Shown here in pieces: positions 3,521-34,476 of a stretch of 40,196 bases of DNA. Under the pieces are notes generated by a model. That model was not told the DNA's origin, made no database searches, and saw nothing but the letters and a program-made list of their open reading frames with translations. Origin of the DNA: a virus; IMG/VR virus record IMGVR_UViG_3300027754_005986, positions 1 to 40,196 of that record. One strand, written 5' to 3'. Made by a program: the position numbers and the translations under genes. Numbering within the stretch: position 1 is the stretch's first letter; every line of letters starts with the position of its first letter.

Positions 3521-5737
3521 TCAAAGGCAACTGATTGGTAAATTGTCGCAGCTACCTGAATAAGTAGGAATACCGCTTGCCAATATAAATATTGGAGGAT
3601 TACTTATTGTTGTATCTGTTATAGGTTGTTTGTAGAATCCGTTAGAAGTTGTTCCAGATAATAAACTAGAAGAGTACCAAGTAAGGGCTGTTATATCTCC
3701 TTTAGAACTACTATAAGCAGATTTATTAAAATAAACTATACTAGAAGTAGGACAAGTACTACAAACTACATTTAAATCGCTAGTAGATAAAGCCGAACCT
3801 GAAATGTTATAATAACAGAATTCTTTCGTTACTACATCAACTACATCAAATAATGCATAAATTGTTGTTGAATATCTTAAATTATACGTAATAGACGATA
3901 AAGAAGAAATAATATCAACAGTTCCTGGAGAGTTAGACCATGCTATAAAGGTTGTTGTTCCTAGTGCTGTAGCTGATAATCCGTGGTTCGAATCATATGA
4001 GCCGGATAATATAAAGGAGCTGGTATACTGGGTGGGGTTAGAAGCAGTTACATAACCTTGAGAGTTATACGTCAAATATGTAGGTACAACTGTTAACGTA
4101 TAATCACTACATTGAGTCTGTGTTCCTCTATAGAATATTCCTGTTTGGTCTCTTACCCATGGATCTATATAAGCTAATGCTGTACTAGCAGAGTAGTATG
4201 ATGCAGAGGTAGGTGCAGTCCAATTTAAACCTGCATCTAGACTATACTCATAAGGTGGTAAACCACCTGCTACGTTAATAGTTGCATTACCGCCAGTACA
4301 GTCTACAGTAGTCCCTGTTATTCTTAATAAATTAGGAGGTGGTGGGCTAGATGTAGTTGGTGTCGGTGTTGATGTAGGAGTTCTTGTATTAGTAGCAGTT
4401 TGTGACTGCGTGTTAGTTTGAGTTTGAGTATTAGTACTTGTTAAAGTTTGAGTAGGAGTCTGTGTACTAGTACTTGTTACTGTCTGTGTCGGAGTCTGTG
4501 TATTAGTTGCAGTTACTGACTGAGTAGGTGTTTGAGTACTAGTACTTGTTAGCGTCTGTGTAGGAGTCTGGGTACTAGTACTTGTTAACGAAGGGGTTTG
4601 TGTCTGCGTAGACGAATTTGTTAAGGTAGGAGTTTGTGTTAACGTTGGAGTACTAGTTAACGTCTGTGTAGGCGTTTGCGTAGAAGTTAACGTAGGAGTA
4701 GATGTACCGCTATTGGTTGGAGTTTGTGTACTAGTTTGAGTATTTGTTTGAGTAGAAGTAGTCGTCAACGTAGGTGTCGATGTTAACGTAGGCGTCTTAG
4801 TACTCGTATTTGTAGGAGTCTGTGTAGCTGTTTGACTATTAGTTTGGGTATTTGTTTGAGTATTAGTACTTGTTAAAGTAGGTGTAGCAGTACTACTATT
4901 TGTAGGAGTCCTAGTGCTAGTAGGAGTCTGTGTAGGAGTAGGTGACTGTGTTCTAGTAGCTGTAACCGAAGGAGTCTGTGTCTGCGTTGTTGTTAACGTA
5001 GGGGTAGAAGTAGGACTAGGGCTAGCACATTCCGGGTCTTGTGCCAAAGCACAGTAGTAAATATCGTTAGTTACATATATTAAGCCTGCTGAATAAAATA
5101 TGTTTCCTACAAAGGTACCGCTTACATAAGCCTCGTAAATTAGGTTAGTATCTAATAATGCACTTCCAGTATAGTTAGCTAAATTGTAACTACCTGTTCC
5201 GAATTTAGAATTTAAGTAAGGTACAATATCAAATAAGTTACCGTTACCATCATCAAGAATATAATACGATTTATCATCAGGCTCTATAGCAAAACTTTTT
5301 CTTGCTATTCCTTCCCCGAAATATACCTGTGGTACGGAAACTGCTACTACTTTTGCAGCTGATGCACTACTAAATAATCTATAGTTGTAATCTAAAGAGC
5401 CAGAAGTAGCAAAGGATTGATTATACGAATCGTAAATATTTGCTATCGAAACGCTAGAGCTATCTGTAGCATCAGCAAGCATTCCATATGTCTGTGAAGA
5501 TAATGGTTCGTAAACTGATTGTGAATAAGCTGATTGTGCGTAGTATAACTGGTAAGCTGAACGATAAAATAGAGATAAAGTATTGTCACCACTTGCTGTT
5601 ACCGCAAAGTTTTTAGCTATTTCTACAGCTAATCCACTCGCAGTAAATTCACTATCTGCTATCTTAAAAGATTTCTGTAGCCCATAGGGCAATACAGATG
5701 TGTCGGAAATCTTTAAAGGTTTTACCGCAGAACTCAT
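3521..5737 (-). CDS. Fibre/adhesin-like protein with Thr/Pro repeat linker and SprB-like repeat
   Basis: A 738-residue protein. Residues 1-235 are rich in Ser, Tyr and Ala and probably form the baseplate-attached part. Residues about 237-470 are a long Thr/Pro/Ser/Gln repeat (TPTQTLTSTSTQT-like) expected to be extended and flexible. It is followed by PPPPN and then GGLPPYEYSLDAGLNWT, which matches the GG-PPY-YS pattern of SprB repeats found in Bacteroidota gliding adhesins. The C-terminal part holds spaced cysteines (CTGG, TQCSDY, VVCSTCP). The gene lies 18 bases after its upstream neighbour in the late structural operon. A tail fibre or surface adhesin is the best reading; the exact role is inferred. 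The repeat is shared with the next gene, suggesting duplication or gene conversion. Confidence 0.85.
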   Translation of the reverse strand: MSSAVKPLKISDTSVLPYGLQKSFKIADSEFTASGLAVEIAKNFAVTASGDNTLSLFYRSAYQLYYAQSAYSQSVYEPLSSQTYGMLADATDSSSVSIANIYDSYNQSFATSGSLDYNYRLFSSASAAKVVAVSVPQVYFGEGIARKSFAIEPDDKSYYILDDGNGNLFDIVPYLNSKFGTGSYNLANYTGSALLDTNLIYEAYVSGTFVGNIFYSAGLIYVTNDIYYCALAQDPECASPSPTSTPTLTTTQTQTPSVTATRTQSPTPTQTPTSTRTPTNSSTATPTLTSTNTQTNTQTNSQTATQTPTNTSTKTPTLTSTPTLTTTSTQTNTQTSTQTPTNSGTSTPTLTSTQTPTQTLTSTPTLTQTPTLTNSSTQTQTPSLTSTSTQTPTQTLTSTSTQTPTQSVTATNTQTPTQTVTSTSTQTPTQTLTSTNTQTQTNTQSQTATNTRTPTSTPTPTTSSPPPPNLLRITGTTVDCTGGNATINVAGGLPPYEYSLDAGLNWTAPTSASYYSASTALAYIDPWVRDQTGIFYRGTQTQCSDYTLTVVPTYLTYNSQGYVTASNPTQYTSSFILSGSYDSNHGLSATALGTTTFIAWSNSPGTVDIISSLSSITYNLRYSTTIYALFDVVDVVTKEFCYYNISGSALSTSDLNVVCSTCPTSSIVYFNKSAYSSSKGDITALTWYSSSLLSGTTSNGFYKQPITDTTISNPPIFILASGIPTYSGSCDNLPISCL
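4330..5030 (-). repeat. Thr/Pro/Gln-rich coding repeat inside the fibre gene
   Basis: About 700 bases of imperfect short units code for TPTxT, TSTxTQT and TNTQT motifs. Units such as TSTSTQTPTQTLTST recur several times, and the nucleotide sequence is similar enough to permit slippage. The same units are found at 1-312 in the next gene. Confidence 0.85.
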
Positions 5738-23728: not shown

Positions 23729-24178
23729 TTATCTATCTCTATCATGGTAGGCATCTGGGTCTTGACCGAAATCACTATCAAATTCTGTAGCAGCATCTTC
23801 GGCAGCAGACATTAACTGCCTGTTAGCTTCTTCAGAGGCTTCTAGTTTTGGAATAAGAGAATCCAAGAATTGTTTATCTTCTATGTAATCACCTTCTCCT
23901 TCTTTTATAGCTCCCTCTATATTTACTATTTCATAGTCGGTAACTTCCCATCCTCCTTGATCATAAAGATATCCATCCATATATTCAGCATCTTTGTAAT
24001 CACCGCTAACTTTTAATGTACCTGCTATTTCAGCATAGACAACACCATCTAATTCTATATCTGATATAGAGAATGGATAAGAAACAGTAGAATCACTGCT
24101 TCTCTCATTAATACCTTCTTTAATAATACCTGCTAATTGTTGAAGTCTAAATGCTTCGTTTATAAGTCCTTTTTTCAT
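23729..24178 (-). CDS. Leader-bearing protein 6: probable packaged internal head protein
   Basis: A 149-residue acidic protein that begins with the shared leader MKKGLINEAFRLQQLAGI, followed by IKEGINE. The body is unrelated to its neighbours. It has an acidic, Asp/Tyr-rich middle (VSGDYKDAEYMDGYLYDQGG) and ends DFGQDPDAYHDRDR. The leader holds INE-A at residues 6-8, and IKE-G and INE-R follow about 20 residues in. These fit the (L/I)-x-E cleavage rule of the T4 prohead protease. T4 internal proteins carry a similar N-terminal capsid-targeting segment that is cut off in the prohead. A packaged and perhaps injected effector is the inferred role; the biochemical activity is unknown. A strong terminator follows. 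Confidence 0.8.
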   Translation of the reverse strand: MKKGLINEAFRLQQLAGIIKEGINERSSDSTVSYPFSISDIELDGVVYAEIAGTLKVSGDYKDAEYMDGYLYDQGGWEVTDYEIVNIEGAIKEGEGDYIEDKQFLDSLIPKLEASEEANRQLMSAAEDAATEFDSDFGQDPDAYHDRDR

Positions 24179-24190
24179 TATTATTTTTTA

Positions 24191-24706
24191 TTAAATAGCT
24201 TTTTCATAACGTTCAGCTTTCCATACATAGTTTTCTATTCCAGAATCGTAAGTAACTATAATCATATCGGGCATAAGTATTTCTTCGTCATCCCACCAGG
24301 TTTCTATACTTTCAGACCCCTCAACAAATACAGGTTCGTTATTAGAGTAGTATTCTTCCCAATTTCCATTAAAACCATCCTCCTCAACTACATCACGTAA
24401 AACACTCTCATAGTCTTCTAAGAGTTGAGATACTAAGTCAAAATAGGAAGATTTTTCAATATCACTATAATCTTGTAAATTACCTCCAGGTCCTCCTGAC
24501 GTAATATCGCCGGAATAGACTGTTTCATCTAATTTTATACCTTCTTCTTTAGCTCCTTGAAGTAAAGTATCCTTAGCTATTTTAAGTAGGTTTTGAATAC
24601 CTTGTTCTATATACTTAGGACTATCGAATTCTTCATTAACTGGTATTGGAGTAATACCTGCTAACTGTTGAAGCCTAAAAGCTTCGTTTATTAATCCTTT
24701 TTTCAT
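24191..24706 (-). CDS. Leader-bearing protein 5: probable packaged internal head protein
   Basis: Start set at ATG 24706, where the conserved leader begins (MKKGLINEAFRLQQLAGI), giving 171 residues. An upstream ATG at 24733 would add nine residues not shared with the family. After the leader comes TPIPVNEEF, giving a second x-x-E site. The body is acidic (VSQLLEDYESVLRDVVEEDG, then IETWWDDEEILMPDM) and ends in a short basic tail (VWKAERYEKAI). The leader DNA is nearly identical to that of its neighbours while the body shares nothing obvious with them. An 11-base gap separates it from the upstream member. Function inferred from the family only. Confidence 0.8.
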   Translation of the reverse strand: MKKGLINEAFRLQQLAGITPIPVNEEFDSPKYIEQGIQNLLKIAKDTLLQGAKEEGIKLDETVYSGDITSGGPGGNLQDYSDIEKSSYFDLVSQLLEDYESVLRDVVEEDGFNGNWEEYYSNNEPVFVEGSESIETWWDDEEILMPDMIIVTYDSGIENYVWKAERYEKAI

Positions 24707-24716
24707 TTTATTAAAT

Positions 24717-25214
24717 TTACTTATAATGAACATTAGCTTTTAAACTAGGAGAATCAAGTATCATATCATACTCTTCTGTAGCGGGGTTTATAACATCTCC
24801 TTTTTCAAATACTATAGACCCGTAGTCTTCGTATTTACTATCTACGTCTGACATAGCAGCAATCATGTTTAACTTATCAAAGTAGTATAGATCCTTTAAG
24901 ATTAATATAGGACCTCCTTCTGCTTCGTTTTGCAAGCCTTCAGTTTCACCTAACTCATCGCGATAAGAATCAGAAATATCTTCGACTGTATCGTGTAAAA
25001 ACTGATTAAAAGGAAGCTTTTCAGTCATTAACTGAGTTAGTATGTTAACTACAGTCTCCGGTTGGGATTCAACCATTGTTTCAAAATATCTATGAATAGT
25101 ACCTTCATCTAATTTCAAAGCATCAGGATTAGCATCTCCAAACAATTCATTTACGGGCCTCAAACCTGCTATTTGTTGAAGTCTAAATGCTTCGTTTATA
25201 AGTCCTTTTTTCAT
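24717..25214 (-). CDS. Leader-bearing protein 4: probable packaged internal head protein
   Basis: A 165-residue protein beginning MKKGLINEAFRLQQIAGL, followed by RPVNELFGDANP. Cleavage-type sites are INE-A at residues 6-8 and VNE-L about residue 21-23. The body is helical and acidic (IHRYFETMVESQPETVVNIL) with a later mixed part (DLYYFDKLNMIAAMSDVDSK). The end of the gene overlaps the long upstream reading of the next gene but not its preferred start at 24706. It is one of five tandem genes whose first 54 bases are near-identical. Confidence 0.8.
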   Translation of the reverse strand: MKKGLINEAFRLQQIAGLRPVNELFGDANPDALKLDEGTIHRYFETMVESQPETVVNILTQLMTEKLPFNQFLHDTVEDISDSYRDELGETEGLQNEAEGGPILILKDLYYFDKLNMIAAMSDVDSKYEDYGSIVFEKGDVINPATEEYDMILDSPSLKANVHYK

Positions 25215-25229
25215 TTTATTTTTTTTAAT

Positions 25230-25715
25230 TTAAACTTCATTAACTCCAATTTGATCTAGGAAGTCCCAGATCTCTTCTGAATCTGCTTCTTCTACAAGGT
25301 ACTCAACTAAACTTTCTACAGAATCGTATCCATTTTCTTGCATGTAACCTTTAACTAGAGGTAAATCTGATGAAATAAATGCAGCTGATTCTTCTTCATT
25401 GAAGATCATTTGATACTCACCCTCTCCTAATTTATTAAAGGAAGCAAATTCTTCCATCATTCTAACAGCATCTTCATCTGTTCCATTGTCAGTTCTAAAA
25501 TTTACTTGCTCTTCATACTCATTTTGCATGTAAGAATCAGGATCGCCAGGAACAATTATTAACTCTACATCTTCAATTTCTCCTCTACTCCCTCCTGTAA
25601 CTTTGATGTATTTAGAACCTACTTGTTCTTTTTGCAAGCCTACATTAAAGTCTTCTTTGATAATACCTGCTAACTGTTGAAGTCTAAATGCTTCGTTTAT
25701 AAATCCTTTTTTCAT
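25230..25715 (-). CDS. Leader-bearing protein 3: probable packaged internal head protein
   Basis: A 161-residue protein beginning MKKGFINEAFRLQQLAGI, then IKEDFN. Cleavage-type sites are INE-A and IKE-D. The body is strongly acidic and ends in EEADSEEIWDFLDQIGVNEV. The middle has a beta-type pattern (YIKVTGGSRGEIEDVELIIV). The C-terminal PLVKGYMQENGYDSVESLVE block is helical. No known domain was recognised. The strongly negative charge is unlike the basic T4 internal proteins, so DNA condensation is unlikely; DNA mimicry or inhibition of a host enzyme could be tested. Confidence 0.8.
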   Translation of the reverse strand: MKKGFINEAFRLQQLAGIIKEDFNVGLQKEQVGSKYIKVTGGSRGEIEDVELIIVPGDPDSYMQNEYEEQVNFRTDNGTDEDAVRMMEEFASFNKLGEGEYQMIFNEEESAAFISSDLPLVKGYMQENGYDSVESLVEYLVEEADSEEIWDFLDQIGVNEV

Positions 25716-25726
25716 TTTATATTAAA

Positions 25727-26620
25727 TTATTGCCAAATTTCATATAAGTGACTATCGGAGAATGCTACAATTAATTTACAGTCTAGGCCCTGCACTGCAT
25801 CCTCATCGTCTCCTAATAAGCCATCTCCCGCTTCTGGACCATATTCAAACTGGATACCCCCTGTTTGATCGAAATCCGGGTCTTCTTCAGAATACATAGC
25901 TCTTTCAGCTTCTAAATTTTGCAATAACTCTTCACCTAGTATATCTTCAGCGTCTCCTATAGAATGACTACCGTAATCGGTAATACAAATAACAGGTTGT
26001 CTTAAATCAATACCTGCTTTCTGAAAAGCTTCTGTTATCGACTCATCAGCACTAATAATGTATTCTTTCTGCATGCCCATAGTTCCTTTTTTTTGCATGC
26101 CTGGTTTTGCACTTTCCATCTCCATTTCATTACCTTGTTGGTCGTAGTAGTAAGTATATCCTTCTCCATCACCATAACCACTTACTTCAAAACCAGTAGC
26201 TGTTTGTTCTATAGAGATAACAATTCCACCTTCCATATCTACGTCTCCTACTGTGAATGACGTACCATTAGGGAAAGAAACACTTTTTATTTCTTTTGGA
26301 GAGAAAAGAGCAGTTTTAGCTTGACCCATTTGCTCTCTTTGCATGCCTCTCGACATACCTTCAGCTTCGATTGTAAAGATAACAATTTTTTGACCATGTA
26401 TATCTTGATCATACTCTTTGGAAGAAGAAATACCTGCTTTACGTAGTTTATCCTCAATGAATTTCTCATTCTTTATAAGGTCACTTACAACAGTCTTGCC
26501 GTTTTCATCTTCGTATGCACCTAAAGTATTTAAAGTATTAGAATCACCTATTTCATTAATAGGTTTAATACCTGCTAACTGTTGAAGCCTAAAAGCCTCT
26601 TTAATTAATTGTTTTTTCAT
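25727..26620 (-). CDS. Leader-bearing protein 2: long acidic internal head protein candidate
   Basis: The largest member, 297 residues, beginning MKKQLIKEAFRLQQLAGI, then KPINEIGDS. Sites are IKE-A and INE-I. The middle is Gly/Met/Gln-rich with repeated MQ patches (MSRGMQREQMGQAKTA; MQKKGTMGMQKEYI) and a beta segment (NGTSFTVGDVDMEGGIVISI). The C-terminal third is acidic (DILGEELLQNLEAERAMYSE; EYGPEAGDGLLGDDEDAVQ). No catalytic motif is obvious. It starts 16 bases after the first gene of the cluster. A packaged effector is inferred from the leader alone. Confidence 0.8.
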   Translation of the reverse strand: MKKQLIKEAFRLQQLAGIKPINEIGDSNTLNTLGAYEDENGKTVVSDLIKNEKFIEDKLRKAGISSSKEYDQDIHGQKIVIFTIEAEGMSRGMQREQMGQAKTALFSPKEIKSVSFPNGTSFTVGDVDMEGGIVISIEQTATGFEVSGYGDGEGYTYYYDQQGNEMEMESAKPGMQKKGTMGMQKEYIISADESITEAFQKAGIDLRQPVICITDYGSHSIGDAEDILGEELLQNLEAERAMYSEEDPDFDQTGGIQFEYGPEAGDGLLGDDEDAVQGLDCKLIVAFSDSHLYEIWQ

Positions 26621-26636
26621 TTTAATTGATTGTTTT

Positions 26637-27218
26637 TTAATTTAAGTAATCCATTAATAAATCGTGAACAAAATCACTATCGTCATTTAACATCTCTAGT
26701 TCTTGTTCTGTATAAGGAGAACCGTCGCTATGTTCGGCATAGTCAATATAAGCATCACTATAGTCCGGTCTGTCCCAATGGTGAACATCGTCAAAAGTAA
26801 CGTTGTAAACATCTCTTGGATCAATACCTTGGGATGCAATGCCGGCCATCTCTTTTAACCTAATTGCCTCTTTGATTAAACCCTTTTGAGAGACCCCCGC
26901 ATTCTCATATATATATTTACCTTTTTTCTTCGTCGCTTCGTAGAGAGATGCATCATGAGATGCCATCTCAGAGCCTTGTCTTTCCTCATAGTCATCTATC
27001 CCTTTAGCATTTTCTGCCTCCGATGAATAGATATGTTTATTCAGAAACTCGATTATATCGTTATCTTCGAAGCCATCCTTGATTAGGTCGTCCATAATGG
27101 CCGATGCCGCCTGGCGAAAGGCATGCAAATCTTTTTGATTGACAAGGCCTTCCATTCTATTATCGCCTTCTTTCATGCCTAGGCTATCTAGGGCTTCTTT
27201 AATAGTTCTTTTTTTCAT
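26637..27218 (-). CDS. Leader-bearing protein 1: double-leader member
   Basis: A 193-residue protein that departs from the family layout. Its own start is a weak leader (MKKRTIKEALDSLGMKEGD, with IKE-A at residues 6-8). A full leader copy then lies inside the protein at residues 111-127 (QKGLIKEAIRLKEMAGI). The segment between them is helical and charged; the part after it (YNVTFDDVHHWDRPDYSDAY) is acidic. This looks like a fusion of two leader-bearing genes or a long pro-region with two protease sites. Its GC content and codon choice look a little higher than its neighbours. It is the first gene of the cluster, 22 bases after TATTTATA. Confidence 0.78.
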   Translation of the reverse strand: MKKRTIKEALDSLGMKEGDNRMEGLVNQKDLHAFRQAASAIMDDLIKDGFEDNDIIEFLNKHIYSSEAENAKGIDDYEERQGSEMASHDASLYEATKKKGKYIYENAGVSQKGLIKEAIRLKEMAGIASQGIDPRDVYNVTFDDVHHWDRPDYSDAYIDYAEHSDGSPYTEQELEMLNDDSDFVHDLLMDYLN

Positions 27219-27370: not shown

Positions 27371-27838
27371 CTAATCCATTTCCGGATCCTCTATACCTAG
27401 TACCTCAAATATCACTTTTCTTATATACATAAAATTAACGAAGAAGCCTTCTCTATTACTTTCAACCCTATAGTCATCCAATCGTCTATGTATTTCTTGT
27501 TCTTTATTATAGGGCTCATCGCAAAACCAAAAATCGCGTACCTGCCATGGAGTAATAACCCCGGTAGCACTATTAATCTCATTTATTCTCTCGGCCACGC
27601 TTCTCTCTGTAAAGCCTACCTTAAAAATGCCTGGCATAGATGTATTTTGCAGAACATAGATATGGCCGGTTGAACCGGACTTACCGTAGCCGTGTTTTTT
27701 TTTATAGTATTTTACCGACCAAGAATTATGGCCTTCCTCTTTAAAGGTATAGCCATTGGCAGTTTTTACAGTGTTACGTATTTGTTCATCGTCCATTTCG
27801 TAAAACTTTGATAAATCCTTGCCTGTTAAATTTTTCAT
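27371..27838 (-). CDS. T5orf172 / MUG113-type GIY-YIG-like nuclease
   Basis: A 155-residue protein. Residues 59-133 follow the T5orf172 family: HIYVLQNTSMPGIFKVGFTE (an IYVL strand, then KVGFT), RSVAERINEIN with the conserved Arg84, then KEQEIHRRL carrying Glu115 and His117, and finally EGFF. These are the positions of the GIY-YIG-like catalytic site. The N-terminal 55 residues are basic and may bind DNA. Family members occur singly in phages and conjugative elements; a role in nicking DNA or excluding rivals is inferred. The gene is preceded by a weak promoter-like TACCTTAA and a GC-rich, hairpin-rich stretch, and followed by a terminator. Confidence 0.82.
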   Translation of the reverse strand: MKNLTGKDLSKFYEMDDEQIRNTVKTANGYTFKEEGHNSWSVKYYKKKHGYGKSGSTGHIYVLQNTSMPGIFKVGFTERSVAERINEINSATGVITPWQVRDFWFCDEPYNKEQEIHRRLDDYRVESNREGFFVNFMYIRKVIFEVLGIEDPEMD

Positions 27839-28032: not shown

Positions 28033-28491
28033 TTAGTCCTCTATCGCTCTCCATGCCTTCTGTATAGGTCTACGTAGTCCTTCACTATAGTCGATAATAA
28101 CGCCATCTACAACGGCCAATGCATGTCTTCTTACTACTACGAAGTATTTACCTTTGTTATAGGTCTTAGCGAATGTTCCTACGGTCATTGATCGTTCTAC
28201 CATCTTACCTTGGTTGTTGTAGTAGGTCTTGATCTCTCTCCCGTTAAGAGTTATAATGCTATTATCATTTAAGAATCCTTTAGTGATGTTAGTAAGAGTA
28301 ACTCCTTTGTTGAAACGTCTCTTAAAGTTATCACTAGCATAACCTAATGCATCCTGATATGGAATGTTCTTTACTATAGCTAATGCCTTAACTGAACAGT
28401 CGCTGCTTTGATACTTGAATGGAGTAGTGCTTAGCTCGGATAAGCCTTTGGCAATTAGAGCCTCCTTGATGTGTACGAATTGATTTGACAT
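28033..28491 (-). CDS. Papain-like fold cysteine peptidase-type protein
   Basis: A 152-residue protein with the layout of small phage papain-like proteins: SSDCSVKALAIVKNIPYQDA (Asp31-Cys32 at the start of a helix), then VGTFAKTYNKGKYFVVVRRH, and ALAVVDGVIIDYSEG (His123, with Asp129 or Asp134). The Cys-His-Asp spacing is that of a cysteine peptidase or transglutaminase-like fold. The phage role is unknown; deubiquitinase-like, amidase or plain structural use are all open. It has its own promoter and starts from the common AATAAAGGTTATG leader. Confidence 0.75.
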   Translation of the reverse strand: MSNQFVHIKEALIAKGLSELSTTPFKYQSSDCSVKALAIVKNIPYQDALGYASDNFKRRFNKGVTLTNITKGFLNDNSIITLNGREIKTYYNNQGKMVERSMTVGTFAKTYNKGKYFVVVRRHALAVVDGVIIDYSEGLRRPIQKAWRAIED

Positions 28492-28513
28492 AACCTTTAT
28501 TTTTTAATGTACC

Positions 28514-28545
28514 TAAATGTAAGAAGAAGGAGGCAGAATGGCAAC
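28514..28545 (-). promoter_or_regulatory. Early promoter for the papain-like gene
   Basis: Minus strand: GTTG (28545-28542), 20-base spacer beginning CCATTCTG, then TACATTTA (28521-28514). The GTTG lies inside the terminator hairpin of the previous gene. Confidence 0.75.
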
Positions 28546-28552
28546 TGCCTCC
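28529..28552 (-). terminator. Terminator hairpin fused to the next promoter
   Basis: On the minus strand an 8-bp stem GGAGGCAG/CTGCCTCC with an 8-base loop is followed by TTCTTCTT. It closes the 124-residue gene, and its loop and right arm carry the promoter of the next gene. Confidence 0.75.
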
Positions 28553-28563
28553 CTATCTTTCTT

Positions 28564-28938
28564 TTAAAGAGCGTTAGCCGGCTCCTCTACAGTAACGTAG
28601 ACGTCTATAGCTTGCTCAATGATCCTAGATAGACTACTACGACTTACTTCATAGCTATCAACCTCTATACAGTTACCGCTTAAGCTAAACTCAGTATCAG
28701 AGATAACATCATCGATACTATCTTCTATATGACTGACTACCTCTTCAACTAAAGACTCATATTGCATGGGCGTTAACTTAAAGAATATTTCTTCTTCGTT
28801 TGACTTAGCCCCTAACTGAGATCTCATCTGATCTTCCATACCGACCTTCTCGATAATGTACTGCATGCTTTCGCCATCTATGTTGATACCGTTCAACACT
28901 GCGATTACTAACTCGATGTTTGCATTTTGATTTGTCAT
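28564..28938 (-). CDS. Acidic early protein of unknown function
   Basis: A 124-residue, very acidic protein starting MTNQNANIELVIAVLNGINI. It has a helix-rich middle (YESLVEEVVSHIEDSIDDVI) and a Ser/Val C-terminus. No catalytic or metal motif is visible. It has its own promoter at 28981-29012 and a long A-rich leader with the ATCAATCA word. The acidity and early timing would fit an inhibitor of a host protein, but that is a guess. Confidence 0.7.
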   Translation of the reverse strand: MTNQNANIELVIAVLNGINIDGESMQYIIEKVGMEDQMRSQLGAKSNEEEIFFKLTPMQYESLVEEVVSHIEDSIDDVISDTEFSLSGNCIEVDSYEVSRSSLSRIIEQAIDVYVTVEEPANAL

Positions 28939-28980
28939 AACCTTTATTGTTTAAATTGTGATTGATTAATTACTACTTTA

Positions 28981-29012
28981 TAAAGATAATAGATAGGATG
29001 CAGAAAGGCAAC
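28981..29012 (-). promoter_or_regulatory. Early promoter for the acidic 124-residue protein
   Basis: Minus strand: GTTG (29012-29009), CCTTTCTG at the start of a 20-base spacer, then TATCTTTA (28988-28981). CTTTATAAAG, a perfect 10-base palindrome, overlaps the downstream element. Confidence 0.75.
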
Positions 29013-29129
29013 TAGATCATAAGAAAGTTTTAAAAATAAAGTTTAAAAAAAGATCCCAACTTAGTTGCTCTTACGAGCTTTTTTTCGTAATTTACGGTAC
29101 TTTTTAATCCACCCCTAACTTTCTCCTAT

Positions 29130-29155
29130 AAAAAAACCTCCGTCAAAGACAGAGG
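29130..29155 (-). terminator. Terminator after the small HTH gene
   Basis: Minus strand: CCTCTGTC pairs with GACGGAGG (one non-canonical pair) around TTT, followed by seven T. It lies about 34 bases after the HTH stop. Confidence 0.85.
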
Positions 29156-29188
29156 CTTTAGTAATTTAACCTTAACTATGAATACAAC

Positions 29189-29359
29189 CTACTTAACTTT
29201 CCTTCGGCTAACTAACTTGTTAGCTTGTTTTGTAATTGATTCGTTGACACGACGTCCTGCGATTACATTATGGACGTGTGACAAACTGTAACCAGTTGTG
29301 ATTGCTACCTTAGCAAGATCCCCTTGCTTCTGGCGCTCTTTAAAAAATGTGTTTACCAT
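29189..29359 (-). CDS. Small helix-turn-helix DNA-binding protein
   Basis: A 56-residue protein reading MVNTFFKERQKQGDLAKVAI and continuing TTGYSLSHVHNVIAGRRVNE. The DLAKVAITTGYSLSHVHNVIAGRR segment (residues 14-37) is a compact Cro/XRE-type helix-turn-helix, and the tail is basic (KLVSRRKVK). It probably binds an operator as a dimer. It has its own promoter (29384-29415) whose spacer resembles those of two other promoters, and its own terminator, so self-regulation is likely. A second, longer HTH protein is encoded at 31196-31579. Confidence 0.78.
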   Translation of the reverse strand: MVNTFFKERQKQGDLAKVAITTGYSLSHVHNVIAGRRVNESITKQANKLVSRRKVK

Positions 29360-29383
29360 TGTTACGATGTTTTTAAGTTCTCT

Positions 29384-29415
29384 TAAATCTATGAACTTGT
29401 TTACGAGAAGGCAAC
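29384..29415 (-). promoter_or_regulatory. Early promoter for the small HTH gene
   Basis: Minus strand: GTTG (29415-29412), 20 bases, then TAGATTTA (29391-29384). The spacer contains AAACAAGTTCA, close to the GATCAAGTTCG word shared by the promoters at 30956 and 31084; a candidate operator. It follows directly on the terminator of the DUF932 gene. Confidence 0.72.
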
Positions 29416-29425
29416 TATTTTCAAA

Positions 29426-29451
29426 GAAAAAAAAAGGGCCCTAAGGCCCCT
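29426..29451 (-). terminator. Terminator after the DUF932 gene
   Basis: Minus strand: AGGGGCC pairs with GGGCCCT around TTA (one mismatch), followed by nine T. It begins 7 bases after the DUF932 stop. Confidence 0.85.
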
Positions 29452-29457
29452 TCTCTC

Positions 29458-30267
29458 TTAGGCGACTAATTCGTAGTCTGTAAACTGAGTAGCCATCTCC
29501 CAAAGGTTCTGATTAAGCTCTACGTCTGCAAGCATGTTAGTAATCTTTCTAACCTTACGCTGCTTACCTGCTTTATTCTTAACAACGAACCCTCCGTGAG
29601 TTAAATGCTCTTGAACTCTATTAAAGACCTTCCAAAGAGTATTACCTTCATCCTCCTTGCGAGTAGATTCAACCATTAAGACTAACTCTTCCTCAGTCAT
29701 TGCAGCATCCTCTCCGAAACGAATCGCAGCTGCCTTAGTAACGAAGTTCTTAATCTCATCTTCGGTCATAACCTTCTCAGTGAAAGCATTAATGCGACCA
29801 ACTACTACCGGCAAAGCTCCTACTGCATTATTTACTAACTGCTGAAGCTCTCCAAATGAATAACCGAAGTGACGAAGATTAAAAGATCCTAAATCTTTAT
29901 CTTTGATGACCAATCCATTAGAGCAGATCAATCTGAAGACTCCAATTTCAAAACGTAACCTTCCCCAACCTCTATGGTTATTGATGATTAACACTTCCGG
30001 ATAAGCTTCTACCTCGCCATTCTCATCCAAGATAGCAATCTCTGGATTATAAAATTTAACTAAGTGCTTACCGTAAGTAAGTTGAACTGGATTCTTACTC
30101 GTCATAGCTTTCGCATCTGAAACGAACCATCCTAACTTCTCCATATCTTCTATGATCTGGAATGTAGGAAGAAAAGAATACTTTGCTGATACAGAATCAA
30201 TTGGAGACTCTGTGTAAATTTGCGGAGCTAAAGCTTTGATTTCCGCTGGATTCAATTTGTGTGACAT
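29458..30267 (-). CDS. DUF932 / phage-plasmid-like protein
   Basis: A 269-residue protein of the DUF932 type. Marker phrases are VLIINNHRGWGRLRFEIGVF, RLICSNGLVI, FGYSFGELQQLVNNAVGALP and NTLWKVFNRVQEHLTHGG. The family is found in phages, plasmids and integrative elements across bacteria. It is expressed early where studied, and its molecular role is not settled. The fold has no recognised catalytic motif. It has its own promoter (30305-30336, whose upstream element overlaps the end of the previous gene), the common leader, and a strong terminator. Confidence 0.88.
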   Translation of the reverse strand: MSHKLNPAEIKALAPQIYTESPIDSVSAKYSFLPTFQIIEDMEKLGWFVSDAKAMTSKNPVQLTYGKHLVKFYNPEIAILDENGEVEAYPEVLIINNHRGWGRLRFEIGVFRLICSNGLVIKDKDLGSFNLRHFGYSFGELQQLVNNAVGALPVVVGRINAFTEKVMTEDEIKNFVTKAAAIRFGEDAAMTEEELVLMVESTRKEDEGNTLWKVFNRVQEHLTHGGFVVKNKAGKQRKVRKITNMLADVELNQNLWEMATQFTDYELVA

Positions 30268-30304
30268 AACCTTTTTGTTTAAATGAATAATTAATTTCTA
30301 TACC

Positions 30305-30336
30305 TAAAGATCGTTGTTTAGTTTCAGACTACCAAC
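30305..30336 (-). promoter_or_regulatory. Early promoter for the DUF932 gene
   Basis: Minus strand: GTTG (30336-30333), 20 bases, then GATCTTTA (30312-30305); one base off the consensus. GTTG forms part of the last codons (AAA AGT TGG TAG) of the upstream 48-residue gene. Confidence 0.6.
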
Positions 30337-30475
30337 TTTTCTTCTTATTTTTTTTGATCGTTGTATAAAATCTTTTGTCGAACGAATCATCTTTGATATT
30401 AAAGTAGGTCAAAGTGAATCCTAAAAAAGCTCCTAGAGCTAATAGGATAGCAAGAATGGCTGCTAATAGATTCAT
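30329..30475 (-). CDS. 48-residue single-pass membrane protein
   Basis: Reads MNLLAAILAILLALGAFLGF and continues TLTYFNIKDDSF, ending KKNKKKSW. One N-terminal transmembrane helix (residues 3-24) is followed by a basic cytoplasmic tail. It starts one base after the stop of the 63-residue membrane protein, in the same transcript, so the two may act together. Such pairs of tiny membrane proteins in early regions often act on the host envelope or block superinfection; this is inference. Confidence 0.68.
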   Translation of the reverse strand: MNLLAAILAILLALGAFLGFTLTYFNIKDDSFDKRFYTTIKKNKKKSW

Positions 30476-30476
30476 T

Positions 30477-30668
30477 TTATTTACGTTTAGCAAACTTACC
30501 CGTCTCGAAATCCCGGAGGACCTTCTTGCCTCTCTTGGTTGTGATCTCTTCGATCATTTGGATGTCTTGCTTGATAGCTTTGATGCAATAGAATGCCGCT
30601 ACCGAAAGAATTACTACGCTACCTACTACTTGGAAGATAGCCATTGGAGTGTTTAACATTTCTGACAT
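30477..30668 (-). CDS. 63-residue single-pass membrane protein
   Basis: Reads MSEMLNTPMAIFQVVGSVVI and continues LSVAAFYCIKAIKQDIQMIE. Residues about 9-28 form a transmembrane helix, followed by a charged helical tail ending GKFAKRK. It begins with the AATAAAAGTTATG leader after a promoter of the early type and is followed at once by the 48-residue membrane protein. No family recognised. Confidence 0.7.
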   Translation of the reverse strand: MSEMLNTPMAIFQVVGSVVILSVAAFYCIKAIKQDIQMIEEITTKRGKKVLRDFETGKFAKRK

Positions 30669-30692
30669 AACTTTTATTTTTTGATTGATACC

Positions 30693-30724
30693 TTAAGTTA
30701 AGAACAAGGAGGCAGAAAAGCAAC
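30693..30724 (-). promoter_or_regulatory. Early promoter for the two small membrane proteins
   Basis: Minus strand: GTTG (30724-30721), spacer beginning CTTTTCTG and 20 bases long, then TAACTTAA (30700-30693). It overlaps the terminator hairpin of the upstream 56-residue gene. Confidence 0.72.
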
Positions 30725-30731
30725 TGCCTCC
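30708..30731 (-). terminator. Terminator hairpin fused to the next promoter
   Basis: Minus strand: stem GGAGGCAG/CTGCCTCC with loop TTGCTTTT, followed by TTGTTCTT. It lies 11 bases after the stop of the 56-residue gene. Confidence 0.75.
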
Positions 30732-30742
30732 GAAGATTTATT

Positions 30743-30913
30743 TTAGCTACCTGCTATTTCGCAGCAATAGCTAACCTCTTCTGAGGTGAAGGAGTCTCCT
30801 AACTTTTCTAACTGGTCAACTAACTCCTCAGTAGCCTGTCCGTAGATTTCAATCTCTCTATTAACTAGAGACTGTATATCTAAAAATCTCAAAACTTTTT
30901 GTTTGTTTAACAT
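30743..30913 (-). CDS. 56-residue helical early protein
   Basis: Reads MLNKQKVLRFLDIQSLVNRE and continues IEIYGQATEELVDQLEKLGD. It is helical and amphipathic through residue 40 and ends in SYCCEIAGS with a Cys pair. It is supported by the AATAAAGGTTATG leader, an exact-spacing promoter (30956-30987) and a terminator hairpin right after the stop. Function unknown. Confidence 0.68.
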   Translation of the reverse strand: MLNKQKVLRFLDIQSLVNREIEIYGQATEELVDQLEKLGDSFTSEEVSYCCEIAGS

Positions 30914-30955
30914 AACCTTTATTTTTAAGTGATTGATTAATTACTTACTACATTA

Positions 30956-30987
30956 TAAAGGTACGAACTTGATCGCGTAAAGGCAAC
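30956..30987 (-). promoter_or_regulatory. Early promoter for the 56-residue helical gene
   Basis: Minus strand: GTTG (30987-30984), 20-base spacer with CGATCAAGTTCGTAC at its end, then TACCTTTA (30963-30956). The 15-base spacer word is identical in the promoter at 31084-31115. Confidence 0.75.
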
Positions 30988-31010
30988 TATTATTTAAAAA
31001 AGTTTCTCTT

Positions 31011-31083
31011 AAAAAAAAAGAACAAACTACGTCTGATCTCTTCAAGTTACGTCCTCGTGTGTCTCGATCTCTCATTGACAACC
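31011..31083 (-). ncRNA. Possible short RNA from an orphan promoter
   Basis: The promoter at 31084-31115 has no convincing gene behind it. The transcript would run about 65-70 bases to a run of nine T at 31019-31011. A 40-codon frame beginning MRDRDTRGRNLKRSD exists, but it lacks the common leader and runs into the next promoter. No clear terminator stem is seen before the T run, so confidence is low. It may be a small RNA or a duplicated, dead promoter region. Confidence 0.2.
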
Positions 31084-31115
31084 TTAATGTACGAACTTGA
31101 TCGTAAGAAGGCAAC
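31084..31115 (-). promoter_or_regulatory. Orphan early promoter
   Basis: Minus strand: GTTG (31115-31112), 20 bases ending CGATCAAGTTCG, then TACATTAA (31091-31084). The spacer is a near copy of that at 30956-30987. The 282 bases between the genes at 30743-30913 and 31196-31579 hold these two promoters, the T9 run and a terminator, with no good gene. Confidence 0.65.
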
Positions 31116-31142
31116 TAGATCATGATCTTTTTTTCCTTCGAA

Positions 31143-31170
31143 CAAAAGAAAGGAGGACCTAAATCCTCCT
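31143..31170 (-). terminator. Terminator after the longer HTH gene
   Basis: Minus strand: AGGAGGA pairs with TCCTCCT around TTTAGG, followed by TTCTTTTG. It is placed 26 bases after the HTH stop at 31196. Confidence 0.8.
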
Positions 31171-31195
31171 ACTCCTTCACTTATAATCAATCAAA

Positions 31196-31579
31196 TTATA
31201 ATTTTACTTGGTACTTTTCCTCAACAAAACGTTTAGCGACTGCGACAACAAATTTGTTCGGCTTATGACCGTTTAAGATAGAGCTCACATAAGTAGGGCT
31301 GATCTTAGAAAGCTTTGCAATCTCTTGATTGTCTCCTCTTCGTAGATACTTCTTGAATGGGAAGAGAACTTTAGGAGTAGTAATAACCTTCTTAACGATT
31401 CGTTTAATCGAACCTTCCTTGATTAATTCAGAGAGAACATTCTCCGTAACAAGTTGAACGTGTGCGGTAGTGATCGAATCGACATTAATGCCTTTGATCA
31501 TCTTAATTACTTCCGAAACCGGCAAGTAAGTGTTTGGTGCGGAGTTCTTAAGCGACTCCAACAAAGCTTGTTTTTCCAT
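31196..31579 (-). CDS. Helix-turn-helix transcription regulator
   Basis: A 127-residue protein. Residues 83-105 (DNQEIAKLSKISPTYVSSIL) are a Cro/XRE-type helix-turn-helix with the usual Gln-Glu-Ile-Ala first helix and Ser-Pro-x-Tyr-Val-Ser recognition helix, followed by NGHKPNK. Residues 1-60 are helical and may dimerise. Its promoter (31620-31651) lies inside the end of the upstream gene. It is the likeliest regulator of the shared early promoters. The palindrome-like TTCTTTAGAGAA at its own start site would suit self-control. Confidence 0.8.
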   Translation of the reverse strand: MEKQALLESLKNSAPNTYLPVSEVIKMIKGINVDSITTAHVQLVTENVLSELIKEGSIKRIVKKVITTPKVLFPFKKYLRRGDNQEIAKLSKISPTYVSSILNGHKPNKFVVAVAKRFVEEKYQVKL

Positions 31580-31610
31580 AACTGATTATTTATTTTTACT
31601 GATTGATTAA

Positions 31611-31943
31611 TTACTTCTCTAAAGAAACGAACCCTTCATCAGAAAGGCAACTCTTTTTAGTTTTATATCCTGCCGGCCTATATAGCCGTAGCTTCTTTAT
31701 TAGCTCCTCAATCTCCTTCTCATCAAGCCATCCAACGACTCCGGACGTACCTTCAAGTATAGGATGCTCCTCAACAATGTCTCCTTCGAAGAAGATAGCC
31801 ATTTCATAGAGGCCTTTATCACCTCCGTAGGTATGTTCTCCCTTGACGATGCTAAGGGTGTAGCCGTTATTCAAGACTACTAAGCCTTGAGTACCATCTC
31901 CCCCCCTCCGGGGGAAGAATGGAATCATATCAAATGTTATCAT
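31611..31943 (-). CDS. 110-residue early protein of unknown function
   Basis: Start set at ATG 31943 (MITFDMIPFFPRRGGDGTQG), which overlaps the upstream TGA in an ATGA, so translation is coupled; a longer reading from 32018 would lie inside the upstream gene. The protein has a Gly-rich N-terminus, an acidic middle (IFFEGDIVEEHPILEGTSGV) and a charged end (WLDEKEIEELIKKLRLYRPA). Its last 15 codons cover the promoter of the HTH gene. Function unknown. Confidence 0.65.
   Translation of the reverse strand: MITFDMIPFFPRRGGDGTQGLVVLNNGYTLSIVKGEHTYGGDKGLYEMAIFFEGDIVEEHPILEGTSGVVGWLDEKEIEELIKKLRLYRPAGYKTKKSCLSDEGFVSLEK
31620..31651 (-). promoter_or_regulatory. Early promoter for the longer HTH gene
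   Basis: Minus strand: GTTG (31651-31648), spacer CCTTTCTG... of 20 bases, then TTTCTTTA (31627-31620), one base off consensus. It lies wholly inside the 3' end of the upstream coding region. Confidence 0.62.
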
Positions 31944-32236
31944 GATATAACTTCTGAGGTTTGTTTTAAATAAGAGCTCGAGAATTGGTAGTATATAGAA
32001 GCAATATCTTCCTCCCAACTCCCATCAATAATATTATGCAATCCTCCCAACTCAATATAGGATATAATCTCCCCTACGGAGTCCATATTCTCGATAGCAA
32101 TGCTTAAATTACCCATTGCTTTGTAATGATCCCCTATCTCTGAGAAGTGAAGATCTTCTGATCGGAGGTCGTACATTTCCCTAATCCTTAACTGCACATT
32201 ATCCTTAGCACAGCGTAATAATGATTTTTTTTCCAT
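31940..32236 (-). CDS. 98-residue early protein of unknown function
   Basis: Start set at ATG 32236 (MEKKSLLRCAKDNVQLRIRE), which carries the AATAAAGGTTATG leader. An upstream ATG at 32293 would lie inside the promoter-hairpin and is rejected. The body is helical and acidic (DHYKAMGNLSIAIENMDSVG), ending SYLKQTSEVIS. Its TGA overlaps the next ATG. No family recognised. Confidence 0.7.
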   Translation of the reverse strand: MEKKSLLRCAKDNVQLRIREMYDLRSEDLHFSEIGDHYKAMGNLSIAIENMDSVGEIISYIELGGLHNIIDGSWEEDIASIYYQFSSSYLKQTSEVIS

Positions 32237-32262
32237 AACCTTTATTTGTTTTGATTGATGAC

Positions 32263-32294
32263 TAAATTTAGGAAGAAGGAGGCAGAATAGCAAC
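32263..32294 (-). promoter_or_regulatory. Early promoter for the coupled pair 31611-32236
   Basis: Minus strand: GTTG (32294-32291), 20 bases beginning CTATTCTG, then TAAATTTA (32270-32263). It overlaps the terminator hairpin. Confidence 0.75.
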
Positions 32295-32301
32295 TGCCTC
32301 C
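32278..32301 (-). terminator. Terminator hairpin fused to the next promoter
   Basis: Minus strand: stem GGAGGCAG/CTGCCTCC, loop TTGCTATT, then TTCTTCC. It lies 10 bases after the stop of the 101-residue gene. Confidence 0.75.
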
Positions 32302-32311
32302 CAAAATCTTT

Positions 32312-32617
32312 TTACTCCGGCCAAAGCATTAACGTCCCTGCGTCATTCCATTCCGGCCAGTAGCCAAGCTCGTTGACATACTCGATGAACTCGCTATGAA
32401 CTCCGTGCTCGTAACTTTGCCAGTCAGAAGTCCAGTAGTCAAATAATAAACGACCATCTGATGCTCTTTCGCCGTTCTCTGCTGAGAGCCAAAAGCCTTC
32501 TGTGGCACCGTTAAAGTATTCTGAAAGACGGATGTGTGATAATCCGAAACGGTTGGCAATTTGATCGCCTAAGGCTTCACGTTGCTCTTCATTGATAATT
32601 TCTACTGCGTTTGTCAT
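32312..32617 (-). CDS. 101-residue early protein of unknown function
   Basis: Start set at ATG 32617 (MTNAVEIINEEQREALGDQI) with the common leader; a reading from 32674 would start in the hairpin. The protein is acidic and Trp-rich in its second half (DYWTSDWQSYEHGVHSEFIE, then YWPEWNDAGTLMLWPE). The aromatic end suggests a protein-binding surface. No family recognised. Confidence 0.72.
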   Translation of the reverse strand: MTNAVEIINEEQREALGDQIANRFGLSHIRLSEYFNGATEGFWLSAENGERASDGRLLFDYWTSDWQSYEHGVHSEFIEYVNELGYWPEWNDAGTLMLWPE

Positions 32618-32643
32618 AACCTTTATTTGTTTTGATTGATAAC

Positions 32644-32675
32644 TAAAGTTAAGAAGAAGGAGCCAGAAAAGCAAC
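32644..32675 (-). promoter_or_regulatory. Early promoter for the 101-residue gene
   Basis: Minus strand: GTTG (32675-32672), 20 bases beginning CTTTTCTG, then TAACTTTA (32651-32644). Confidence 0.75.
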
Positions 32676-32682
32676 TGGCTCC
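32659..32682 (-). terminator. Terminator hairpin fused to the next promoter (alternate stem)
   Basis: Minus strand: stem GGAGCCAG/CTGGCTCC, where both arms differ from the GGAGGCAG/CTGCCTCC type in a compensating way, with loop TTGCTTTT. It starts 9 bases after the stop at 32691. Confidence 0.78.
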
Positions 32683-32690
32683 AAAGATTT

Positions 32691-32888
32691 TTAATCCCCT
32701 TCGTACATCAGTCGATTCTCTAAAGCCTCCTCGGCATCTCCCGACTCGACAAAGTCGATCATCAGTTTAAGTAGACGAATTCTATACTCCTCATCTCTAG
32801 GACCAGAAGCAATGCAATCAATGTGTGGAAGACATTCTACTAAATCTTTGTAGGTGTTTTCGTTTCTGCAATAAGACATGTTTGCCAT
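32691..32888 (-). CDS. Small conserved phage protein (MSYCR type)
   Basis: A 65-residue protein reading MANMSYCRNENTYKDLVECL. The MSYCR-x-x-NT-x-x-DL-x-x-C start is one I know from small hypothetical proteins in many phages; the role is not known. The rest is an acidic helix (LLKLMIDFVESGDAEEALEN). It has the common leader and its own promoter. Confidence 0.75.
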   Translation of the reverse strand: MANMSYCRNENTYKDLVECLPHIDCIASGPRDEEYRIRLLKLMIDFVESGDAEEALENRLMYEGD

Positions 32889-32927
32889 AACCTTTGTTGT
32901 TTAAATGATTGATTAATTATTACATTC

Positions 32928-32959
32928 TAAATGTAGCAATAAGGAGCCAGAAAAGCAAC
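32928..32959 (-). promoter_or_regulatory. Early promoter for the MSYCR-type gene
   Basis: Minus strand: GTTG (32959-32956), 20 bases, then TACATTTA (32935-32928). The downstream element is part of the palindrome TACATTTAGAATGTA. Confidence 0.75.
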
Positions 32960-32966
32960 TGGCTCC
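32943..32966 (-). terminator. Terminator hairpin fused to the next promoter (alternate stem)
   Basis: Minus strand: stem GGAGCCAG/CTGGCTCC, loop TTGCTTTT, then TTATT. It lies 10 bases after the stop at 32977. Confidence 0.75.
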
Positions 32967-32976
32967 CTAACTTTTT

Positions 32977-33177
32977 TTAGGCTGACTTAAACATCTCCCG
33001 TCCTTTATTCTTCCAATCTTGCCATTCCTTCTCTCCCATATGCTCTCCCATAAGCTCCTCTAGTTGATTCATCCGGTAGTGAAGAGCTTTTACGACTACT
33101 GCATTGTGGGTTGATACGTTCAACTCCCAGTTGACGTCTAACATCTCGTTAAATAATTCTCTTTGATAATTTGTCAT
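32977..33177 (-). CDS. 66-residue helical early protein
   Basis: Reads MTNYQRELFNEMLDVNWELN and continues with a second helix (MNQLEELMGEHMGEKEWQDW). It is Met/Glu/Trp-rich and probably a helical hairpin. It is the first gene of the leftward group from the divergent control region and has the common leader and promoter. Function unknown. Confidence 0.7.
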   Translation of the reverse strand: MTNYQRELFNEMLDVNWELNVSTHNAVVVKALHYRMNQLEELMGEHMGEKEWQDWKNKGREMFKSA

Positions 33178-33364: not shown

Positions 33365-33396
33365 GTTGCCTTTCTGATCCTTAGCTATTATCTTTA
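33365..33396 (+). promoter_or_regulatory. Rightward early promoter of the divergent control region
   Basis: Plus strand: GTTG (33365-33368), 20 bases beginning CCTTTCTG, then TATCTTTA (33389-33396). It is followed by ATCAATCA and the AATAAATGTTATG start of the plus-strand gene, so the same control layout is used in both directions. Confidence 0.75.
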
Positions 33397-33420: not shown

Positions 33421-33693
33421 ATGACAAACAAAATCGAACAAGTTAAGCTTCTTATGGAAAAAGCTAAGGATGGTAAAGTCTTTACCGTAGACTTCGTTAA
33501 GAAGGATGGTACTCCAAGAACAATGAATGCCCGTTTAGGAGTAAAGAAAGGTGTTAAAGGAGTAGGACAGAAGTATTCTCCGTCTGATTATAACCTCCTT
33601 ACAGTCTTCGATATGCAAAAGGCATCTTTTAGAAACATTGTATTAGAGTCGATCTCACGAGTAACTATTAGTGGAGAAACGATTCTCTTCTAA
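33421..33693 (+). CDS. WYL_2 / Sm-like SH3-barrel phage protein
   Basis: A 90-residue protein, the one well-supported plus-strand gene. VFTVDFVKKDGTPRTMNARL, then GVKKGVKGVGQKY and NLLTVFDMQKASFRNIVLES, follow the WYL_2 (Sm-like SH3 beta-barrel) family found widely in phages, which ends in a strand with an R-x-I pair. The family may bind a nucleic acid or small ligand; the function is not known. Control signals match the minus-strand early genes, and a terminator hairpin follows. Confidence 0.82.
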   Translation: MTNKIEQVKLLMEKAKDGKVFTVDFVKKDGTPRTMNARLGVKKGVKGVGQKYSPSDYNLLTVFDMQKASFRNIVLESISRVTISGETILF

Positions 33694-34425: not shown

Positions 34426-34457
34426 TAAAGGTAAGAATTATATAGCAGAAAAGCAAC
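34426..34457 (-). promoter_or_regulatory. Early promoter of the candidate small RNA
   Basis: Minus strand: GTTG (34457-34454), 20 bases beginning CTTTTCTG, then TACCTTTA (34433-34426). Confidence 0.7.
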
Positions 34458-34476
34458 TCCCTTAGGAGCTAGTGTA

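Follow-up and report, generated by a model that had tools for sequence, protein, structure and literature searches.

The window analysed here, the IMG/VR record IMGVR_UViG_3300027754_005986, is a whole contig of 40,196 base pairs (bp) of phage DNA. It carries five intergenic elements in which a terminator-like hairpin and the promoter of the following gene occupy the same bases. On the sequence evidence below we consider it highly likely that these elements are intrinsic terminators superposed on the next gene's promoter at the joints between gene cassettes. Roughly 40 bases probably serve, in this group of Flavobacterium-type phages, both to end one transcript and to begin the next. The five sites had been picked out in a preliminary description of the window, and all of them are present at the positions given there.

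The genes of the array and all five elements lie on the minus strand. Read in that direction each element follows the same order: the stop codon of the upstream gene, 8-11 nucleotides (nt) of spacer, an 8-bp hairpin, a T-rich tract, a -7 box and the ATG of the next gene. The minus-strand consensus of the five sites is GGAG[G/C]CAG-TTGCnnTT-CTG[C/G]CTCC, an 8-bp stem around the 8-nt loop TTGCnnTT, and the GTTG that forms the -33 box of the next promoter is built into it, its G closing the left arm and its TTG beginning the loop. Counted from the start of GTTG, the -7 box starts 24 bases and the next ATG 54-71 bases downstream. As 66-nt minus-strand RNAs the five hairpins are more stable than shuffles (z of -2.4 to -3.8), and the T-rich runs that follow are interrupted, as in TTCTTCTT.

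Three sites use the stem GGAGGCAG/CTGCCTCC and two use GGAGCCAG/CTGGCTCC, the split originally described. Element 1 has the hairpin GGAGGCAG-TTGCCATT-CTGCCTCC and the T-rich tail TTCTTCTT (28529-28552, 11 nt past the stop of open reading frame (ORF) 28564-28938), and its promoter (28514-28545, with GTTG at 28542-28545 and the -7 box TACATTTA at 28514-28521) would serve ORF 28033-28491. The hairpin of element 2, GGAGGCAG-TTGCTTTT-CTGCCTCC (30708-30731), lies 11 nt past the stop of ORF 30743-30913, and the promoter at 30693-30724 would serve ORF 30477-30668. A TAnnTTTA box had been claimed for all sites; it is found at the others, while the box of the 30693-30731 site deviates and reads TAACTTAA. 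Element 3, GGAGGCAG-TTGCTATT-CTGCCTCC (32278-32301), is located 10 nt past the stop of ORF 32312-32674; its promoter runs from GTTG to the -7 box TAAATTTA (32263-32294), and the start codon is probably the ATG at about 32236 rather than the upstream TTG of the mechanical ORF 31940-32293. Elements 4 and 5 share the hairpin GGAGCCAG-TTGCTTTT-CTGGCTCC. That of element 4 (32659-32682) is 8 nt past the stop of ORF 32691-32888, with a promoter ending in TAACTTTA (32644-32675) and an ATG probably at about 32617. That of element 5 (32943-32966) is 10 nt past the stop of ORF 32977-33177 and reaches 11 pairs with the extension TAG/TTA; its promoter, with the -7 box TACATTTA (32928-32959), would serve ORF 32691-32888. 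The 5' leaders in the window, for example 28492-28512 and 32617-32640, are conserved (AATCAATCA...AATAAAGGTTATG) and have no Shine-Dalgarno-like AGGAGG.

The window is evidently a fragment of a larger phage, an Immutovirus-like myophage. Its baseplate wedge protein shares 48% identity with the counterpart in Flavobacterium phage vB_FspM_immuto_2-6A (immuto), an Immutovirus with a 160-kb genome. Relatives were located through the baseplate protein and a stricter promoter pattern; a loose promoter pattern applied to all viral contigs was dropped because its matches were mostly due to chance and many were apparently intragenic. Among 18 contigs tested, the window's baseplate protein was found in 13 (46-59% identity) and the terminase of immuto in 8 (75-96%); most of them therefore belong to one broad phage group. 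The closest relative is a near-identical contig of 65,741 bp, IMGVR_UViG_3300020042_009435 (G001), which matches the hairpin pattern four times and was the only contig retrieved with the DUF932 protein as query. It is also the only other place in the viral collection with the exact window hairpin, so no covariation can be obtained from exact copies. The phage DNA collection gave zero nucleotide matches to the window, and nothing in Rfam matched within it. One exact fused element, compared with 84,980 species genomes, had as its sole match a 3.3-kb metagenome-bin contig, which has several GTTG/TAnnTTTA promoters and is probably phage DNA. Contig L387 (CAJBLF010000034.1), filed in a bacterial metagenome bin, contains several promoters and fused hairpins of the GTTG/TAnnTTTA type and is probably phage DNA binned with a host.

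The promoter motif GTTG-N19-22-TAnnTTTA stands out clearly from a reversed control, with 12 sites against 0 in the window, 35 against 1 in immuto, and 21 against 0, 22 against 0 and 30 against 1 in the relatives G019, G021 and G022. The immuto sites are concentrated in its small-gene region at about 60-76 kb. For promoters of this type, the median distance from the -7 box to the ATG-initiated ORF downstream is 26-27 nt. Promoters of the Bacteroidetes primary sigma factor (sigma-ABfr type) consist of a -33 TTTG and a -7 TAnnTTTG (PMC7366714). The phage motif shares their two-box layout and the -7 core TAnnTTT and differs from them in having GTTG at -33, in ending the -7 box with A instead of G, and in the strong hairpin that overlaps the -33 box in about 15% of cases. 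The canonical TTTG/TAnnTTTG form is not enriched in these phages, which use GTTG/TAnnTTTA instead. Sigma-70 consensus sites are not enriched either (39 found, 50.4 expected), as expected from the type of host. Outside the array, a plus-strand gene at 33421-33693 has a promoter of the same type at 33365 (plus strand) that points away from the minus-strand genes, making this a divergent point.

Hairpins lie over the same promoter box in immuto, G019 and G021/G022, with very different stems: AAGTTGCCTC-TTCG-GAGGCAATTT, AAGGTAGGTA-cttagt-TGCCTACCTT, AGGGAAGG-gttgct-CCTTCCCT and AGGGGGTTGGT-tat-ACTGACCCTCT. The GTTG may fall in either arm or in the loop, and stem sequence, loop length (3-10) and register differ widely, even inside one genome. 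The frequency of such hairpins was assessed in 463 unique promoters from 67 sources among the matches listed, a sample and not a total. Hairpins overlapping GTTG with a score of at least 20 numbered 56 against 3.8 expected, and those with a score of at least 18 numbered 68 against 10.2, the expectation being taken from flanks shuffled with GTTG and dinucleotides preserved. The excess is greatest at the -33 box, where 14.7% of promoters have such a hairpin, and drops to 0-3% at distances of 50 bases or more; 50-75 bases past GTTG, strong hairpins were found in 0 of 463 and 0 of 462.

This diversity bears on two other readings of the elements. The window copies recombine among themselves and reach 87% identity, and their covariation is a single pair, as might be seen if they were recent duplicates whose hairpin has no selected function. 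Unrelated stems at the same place in many other phages, formal covariation and the enrichment over shuffles make this scarcely credible. Hairpin and promoter also overlap in phage N4, and the elements could in principle be promoters of that type, in which a hairpin extruded from DNA is recognised by the phage virion RNA polymerase. The hairpin of N4 early promoters is short, keeps a fixed place near -11 and serves as the recognition structure, whereas the one here is optional and movable: most promoters with the same -33 and -7 boxes have none, and where hairpins occur they take variable positions upstream of the -7 box. The boxes moreover look like those of the host primary sigma factor, whose consensus is TTTG/TAnnTTTG (PMC7366714). 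No virion RNA polymerase is named in the immuto annotation, although no search aimed at one was made. We judge an N4-type promoter to be highly improbable.

Whether the stem is selected as RNA or as DNA can be approached through its mismatches, since G.T and A.C were given equal cost in stem scoring. The stems hold 100 G.U and 11 A.C pairs, compared with 351 and 299 in shuffles. A de-replicated set of 42 elements gave 46 and 8, and with all pairs involving GTTG excluded the counts were 19 and 8 (sign test, p about 0.01). This excess of G.U, unlike the behaviour of a double-stranded palindrome, indicates that the selected molecule is RNA in the direction of the genes, and such RNA, where it covers DNA ahead of the start site, must come from transcription of the preceding gene. 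The inverted repeats might otherwise be DNA operators, with promoter control exerted by a dimeric protein bound to the palindrome over the -33 box. Perfect 8-bp dyads do recur at several window promoters, and other phages have palindromic repeats too; that of Cluster O mycobacteriophages is a 17-bp dyad (PMC4351075). A palindrome would, however, treat G.T and A.C alike, and the stems, loops and register vary with no conserved half-site, so that an operator seems very unlikely. The Cluster O dyads resemble the present elements in being short repeats, many of them intergenic, and recombination between copies has been proposed to delete segments (PMC4351075); they differ in being an invariant DNA palindrome mostly located off promoters, whereas the stems described here vary and covary as RNA.

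Covariation was measured on nine elements, seven with a 10-bp stem and a 3-base loop and two about one pair shorter at the loop. In this one register 6 of 10 pairs are changed on both sides, and the covariation score of 0.542 compares with 0.239 in shuffles (0 of 500 reached it) and with 0.05-0.14 when the register is slid. In the alignment 98.9% of cells pair, a figure that is partly by construction because the nine were drawn from hairpin-bearing elements, although the sequence changes are not. Promoters without a hairpin that share the core pair at only 3-6 bases in the same register. The test in related phages that had been suggested at the outset thus bore out the stem. The covariation originally noted within the window is correct and also thin, consisting of one varying pair among paralogous repeat copies. 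The accompanying claim, that a real RNA stem and a promoter are superposed, is upheld chiefly by evidence from outside the window, namely unrelated stems, covariation, G.U bias and placement after stop codons.

The elements share with intrinsic (Rho-independent) terminators a stable short-loop hairpin, a T-rich tail and a position just past a stop codon; they depart from them in that the -33 box of the following gene falls in one arm or the loop, and the tail continues into that gene's -7 box. Across the sample the stems mostly begin 2-26 nt past the upstream stop codon, and the 8 bases past the stem hold a mean of 5.2 T, compared with 4.2 in hairpin-less promoters. Of the terminator-like hairpins near the promoters, 63 are fused, compared with 12 that stand apart within 110 bases upstream. 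A different role for an RNA hairpin at this position would be that of a 3'-end stabiliser or RNase processing site in a read-through mRNA. The moderate T tracts would suit that role, as would the many joints that have no terminator-like hairpin, where read-through is probably common. The stem strength, the loop size, the T-rich tail and the position just past the stop codon fit intrinsic termination, and we regard a stabiliser or processing site as improbable.

Several observations weigh against superposed terminators and promoters. The T tracts are moderate, and part of their T content comes from the T-rich bases that the promoter itself has ahead of the -7 box. This T-richness also aids the criterion of at least 5 T, which makes the ratio of fused to separate hairpins approximate. 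The A-rich bases before the stems would permit termination on the opposite strand as well. Taken by themselves, the elements of the window and G001 have one pair changed on both sides (36 of 500 for cells), and G001 carries one element with a C.C mismatch; its elements also include wobble variants. Finally, about 85% of GTTG/TAnnTTTA promoters have no strong hairpin, so that fusion is an option and not a rule.

If the elements are superposed terminators and promoters, the array would consist of small gene cassettes placed head to tail, probably expressed early. Host RNA polymerase finishing the upstream gene would transcribe the hairpin and the T-rich tail and release its transcript just before the -7 box, while GTTG, in arm or loop, and the TAnnTTTA box, acting as double-stranded DNA, would make up the next gene's promoter. 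Being upstream of the start site, the hairpin would as RNA be part of the upstream transcript only. The layout, the enrichment, the RNA-type pairing with its strand bias, the placement past stop codons and the chimeric joints can be read from the sequence, and we infer that polymerase terminates and initiates at the elements, that it is the host's and that the genes act early. Separate terminators are scarce and the spaces between genes short, which suggests compaction. The released polymerase may further stay on the DNA and reinitiate at once, passing from cassette to cassette, an extension that we think doubtful. We know of no natural element built for such a hand-over. In vitro, E. coli polymerase shows retention after termination and reinitiation at nearby promoters (PMC6978380).

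The shared core would also make the joints recombination sites for the gain and loss of cassettes. Over the region the window shares 93-98% identity with G001, and the two differ by short segments, gained or lost, that are bounded by element repeats. Three chimeric joints switch at or adjoining the GTTG core. At G001 32817 the upstream part resembles window 32675 and the downstream part window 32294; the ungapped upstream identity is low (0.43) from a one-base shift, and the case rests on reading the printed alignment, in which the letters adjoining the core match once shifted. Window 29012 is like G001 29909 (97%) and then like G001 28956 (94%), and G001 31638 is like window 31115 (93%) and then window 30987 (96%). 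The chimeras have imperfect stems: that at G001 32817 contains a C.C mismatch, and that at window 29012 has lost its left arm. The latter is a hairpin-less promoter (28981-29012, minus strand) that keeps a right arm, CTGCATCC, as a relic; it is a recombinant of two elements that are still distinct in G001. These joints imply that the upstream half of an element travels with the preceding gene and its downstream half with the following gene, and by sequence comparison they appear as the sites where neighbouring phages swap single genes.

The original list of five sites, although real, omitted some weaker fused candidates. On the minus strand, TAGCTCC-TAAG-GGAGTTG (stem 34454-34471, element 34426-34471) has GTTG in its right arm and is followed by CTTTTCTGCT and the -7 box TACCTTTA, and GCCTTTC-TGAT-GAAGGGT (stem 31631-31648, element 31620-31652) overlaps AGTTGC and has a T-rich tail and the box TTTCTTTA. 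A plus-strand candidate at about 29063-29096 reads AGTTGCTC-TTAC-GAGC-TTTTTTT and then TAATTTAC; its short stem is not the predicted minimum-energy fold. Elsewhere in the window, five consecutive minus-strand genes (23729-26620) encode different proteins with the common N-terminal motif MKK[GQ][LF]I[NK]EAFRLQQ[LI]AG, and the next gene (26637-27218) starts MKKRTIKEAL and has an internal GLIKEAIRLKEMAGI; the shared MKK motif reminds us of the leaders that target T4 internal proteins to the capsid. At 14-300 and 4344-5011 the window has two long tracts of GTnnnn hexamers, repeated with spacings of 18 and 36 bases; one of them lies inside ORF 3521-5737, consistent with a threonine-rich repetitive protein. 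The minus-strand gene 27371-27838 has by eye a T5orf172-type look, as annotated for immuto gene 75473-76105, and in both phages the T5orf172-like gene lies near the end of the small-gene region.

Terminators and promoters are usually annotated as separate parts. The E. coli frd operon terminator overlaps the control region of ampC, lying downstream of the ampC promoter as its attenuator. It is like the present elements in using shared DNA to terminate one gene and control the next, and unlike them it is a single locus and not a repeated module, with the terminator not inside the -33 to -7 interval. The literature covered contains no report of fused elements as repeated gene joints in a phage group, which is weak evidence of absence as most subscription journals lay outside that coverage. 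Single terminator/promoter overlaps are already known in principle, and the systematic, repeated design appears to be new. An RNA stem and two DNA boxes within about 40 bases would be natural overlapping codes in regulation, and the elements may serve as compact parts for Bacteroidetes genetics. They would also offer a natural system for asking whether a polymerase released at a terminator reinitiates next door, and their design suggests how single-gene cassettes can be swapped among these phages without disturbing their neighbours.

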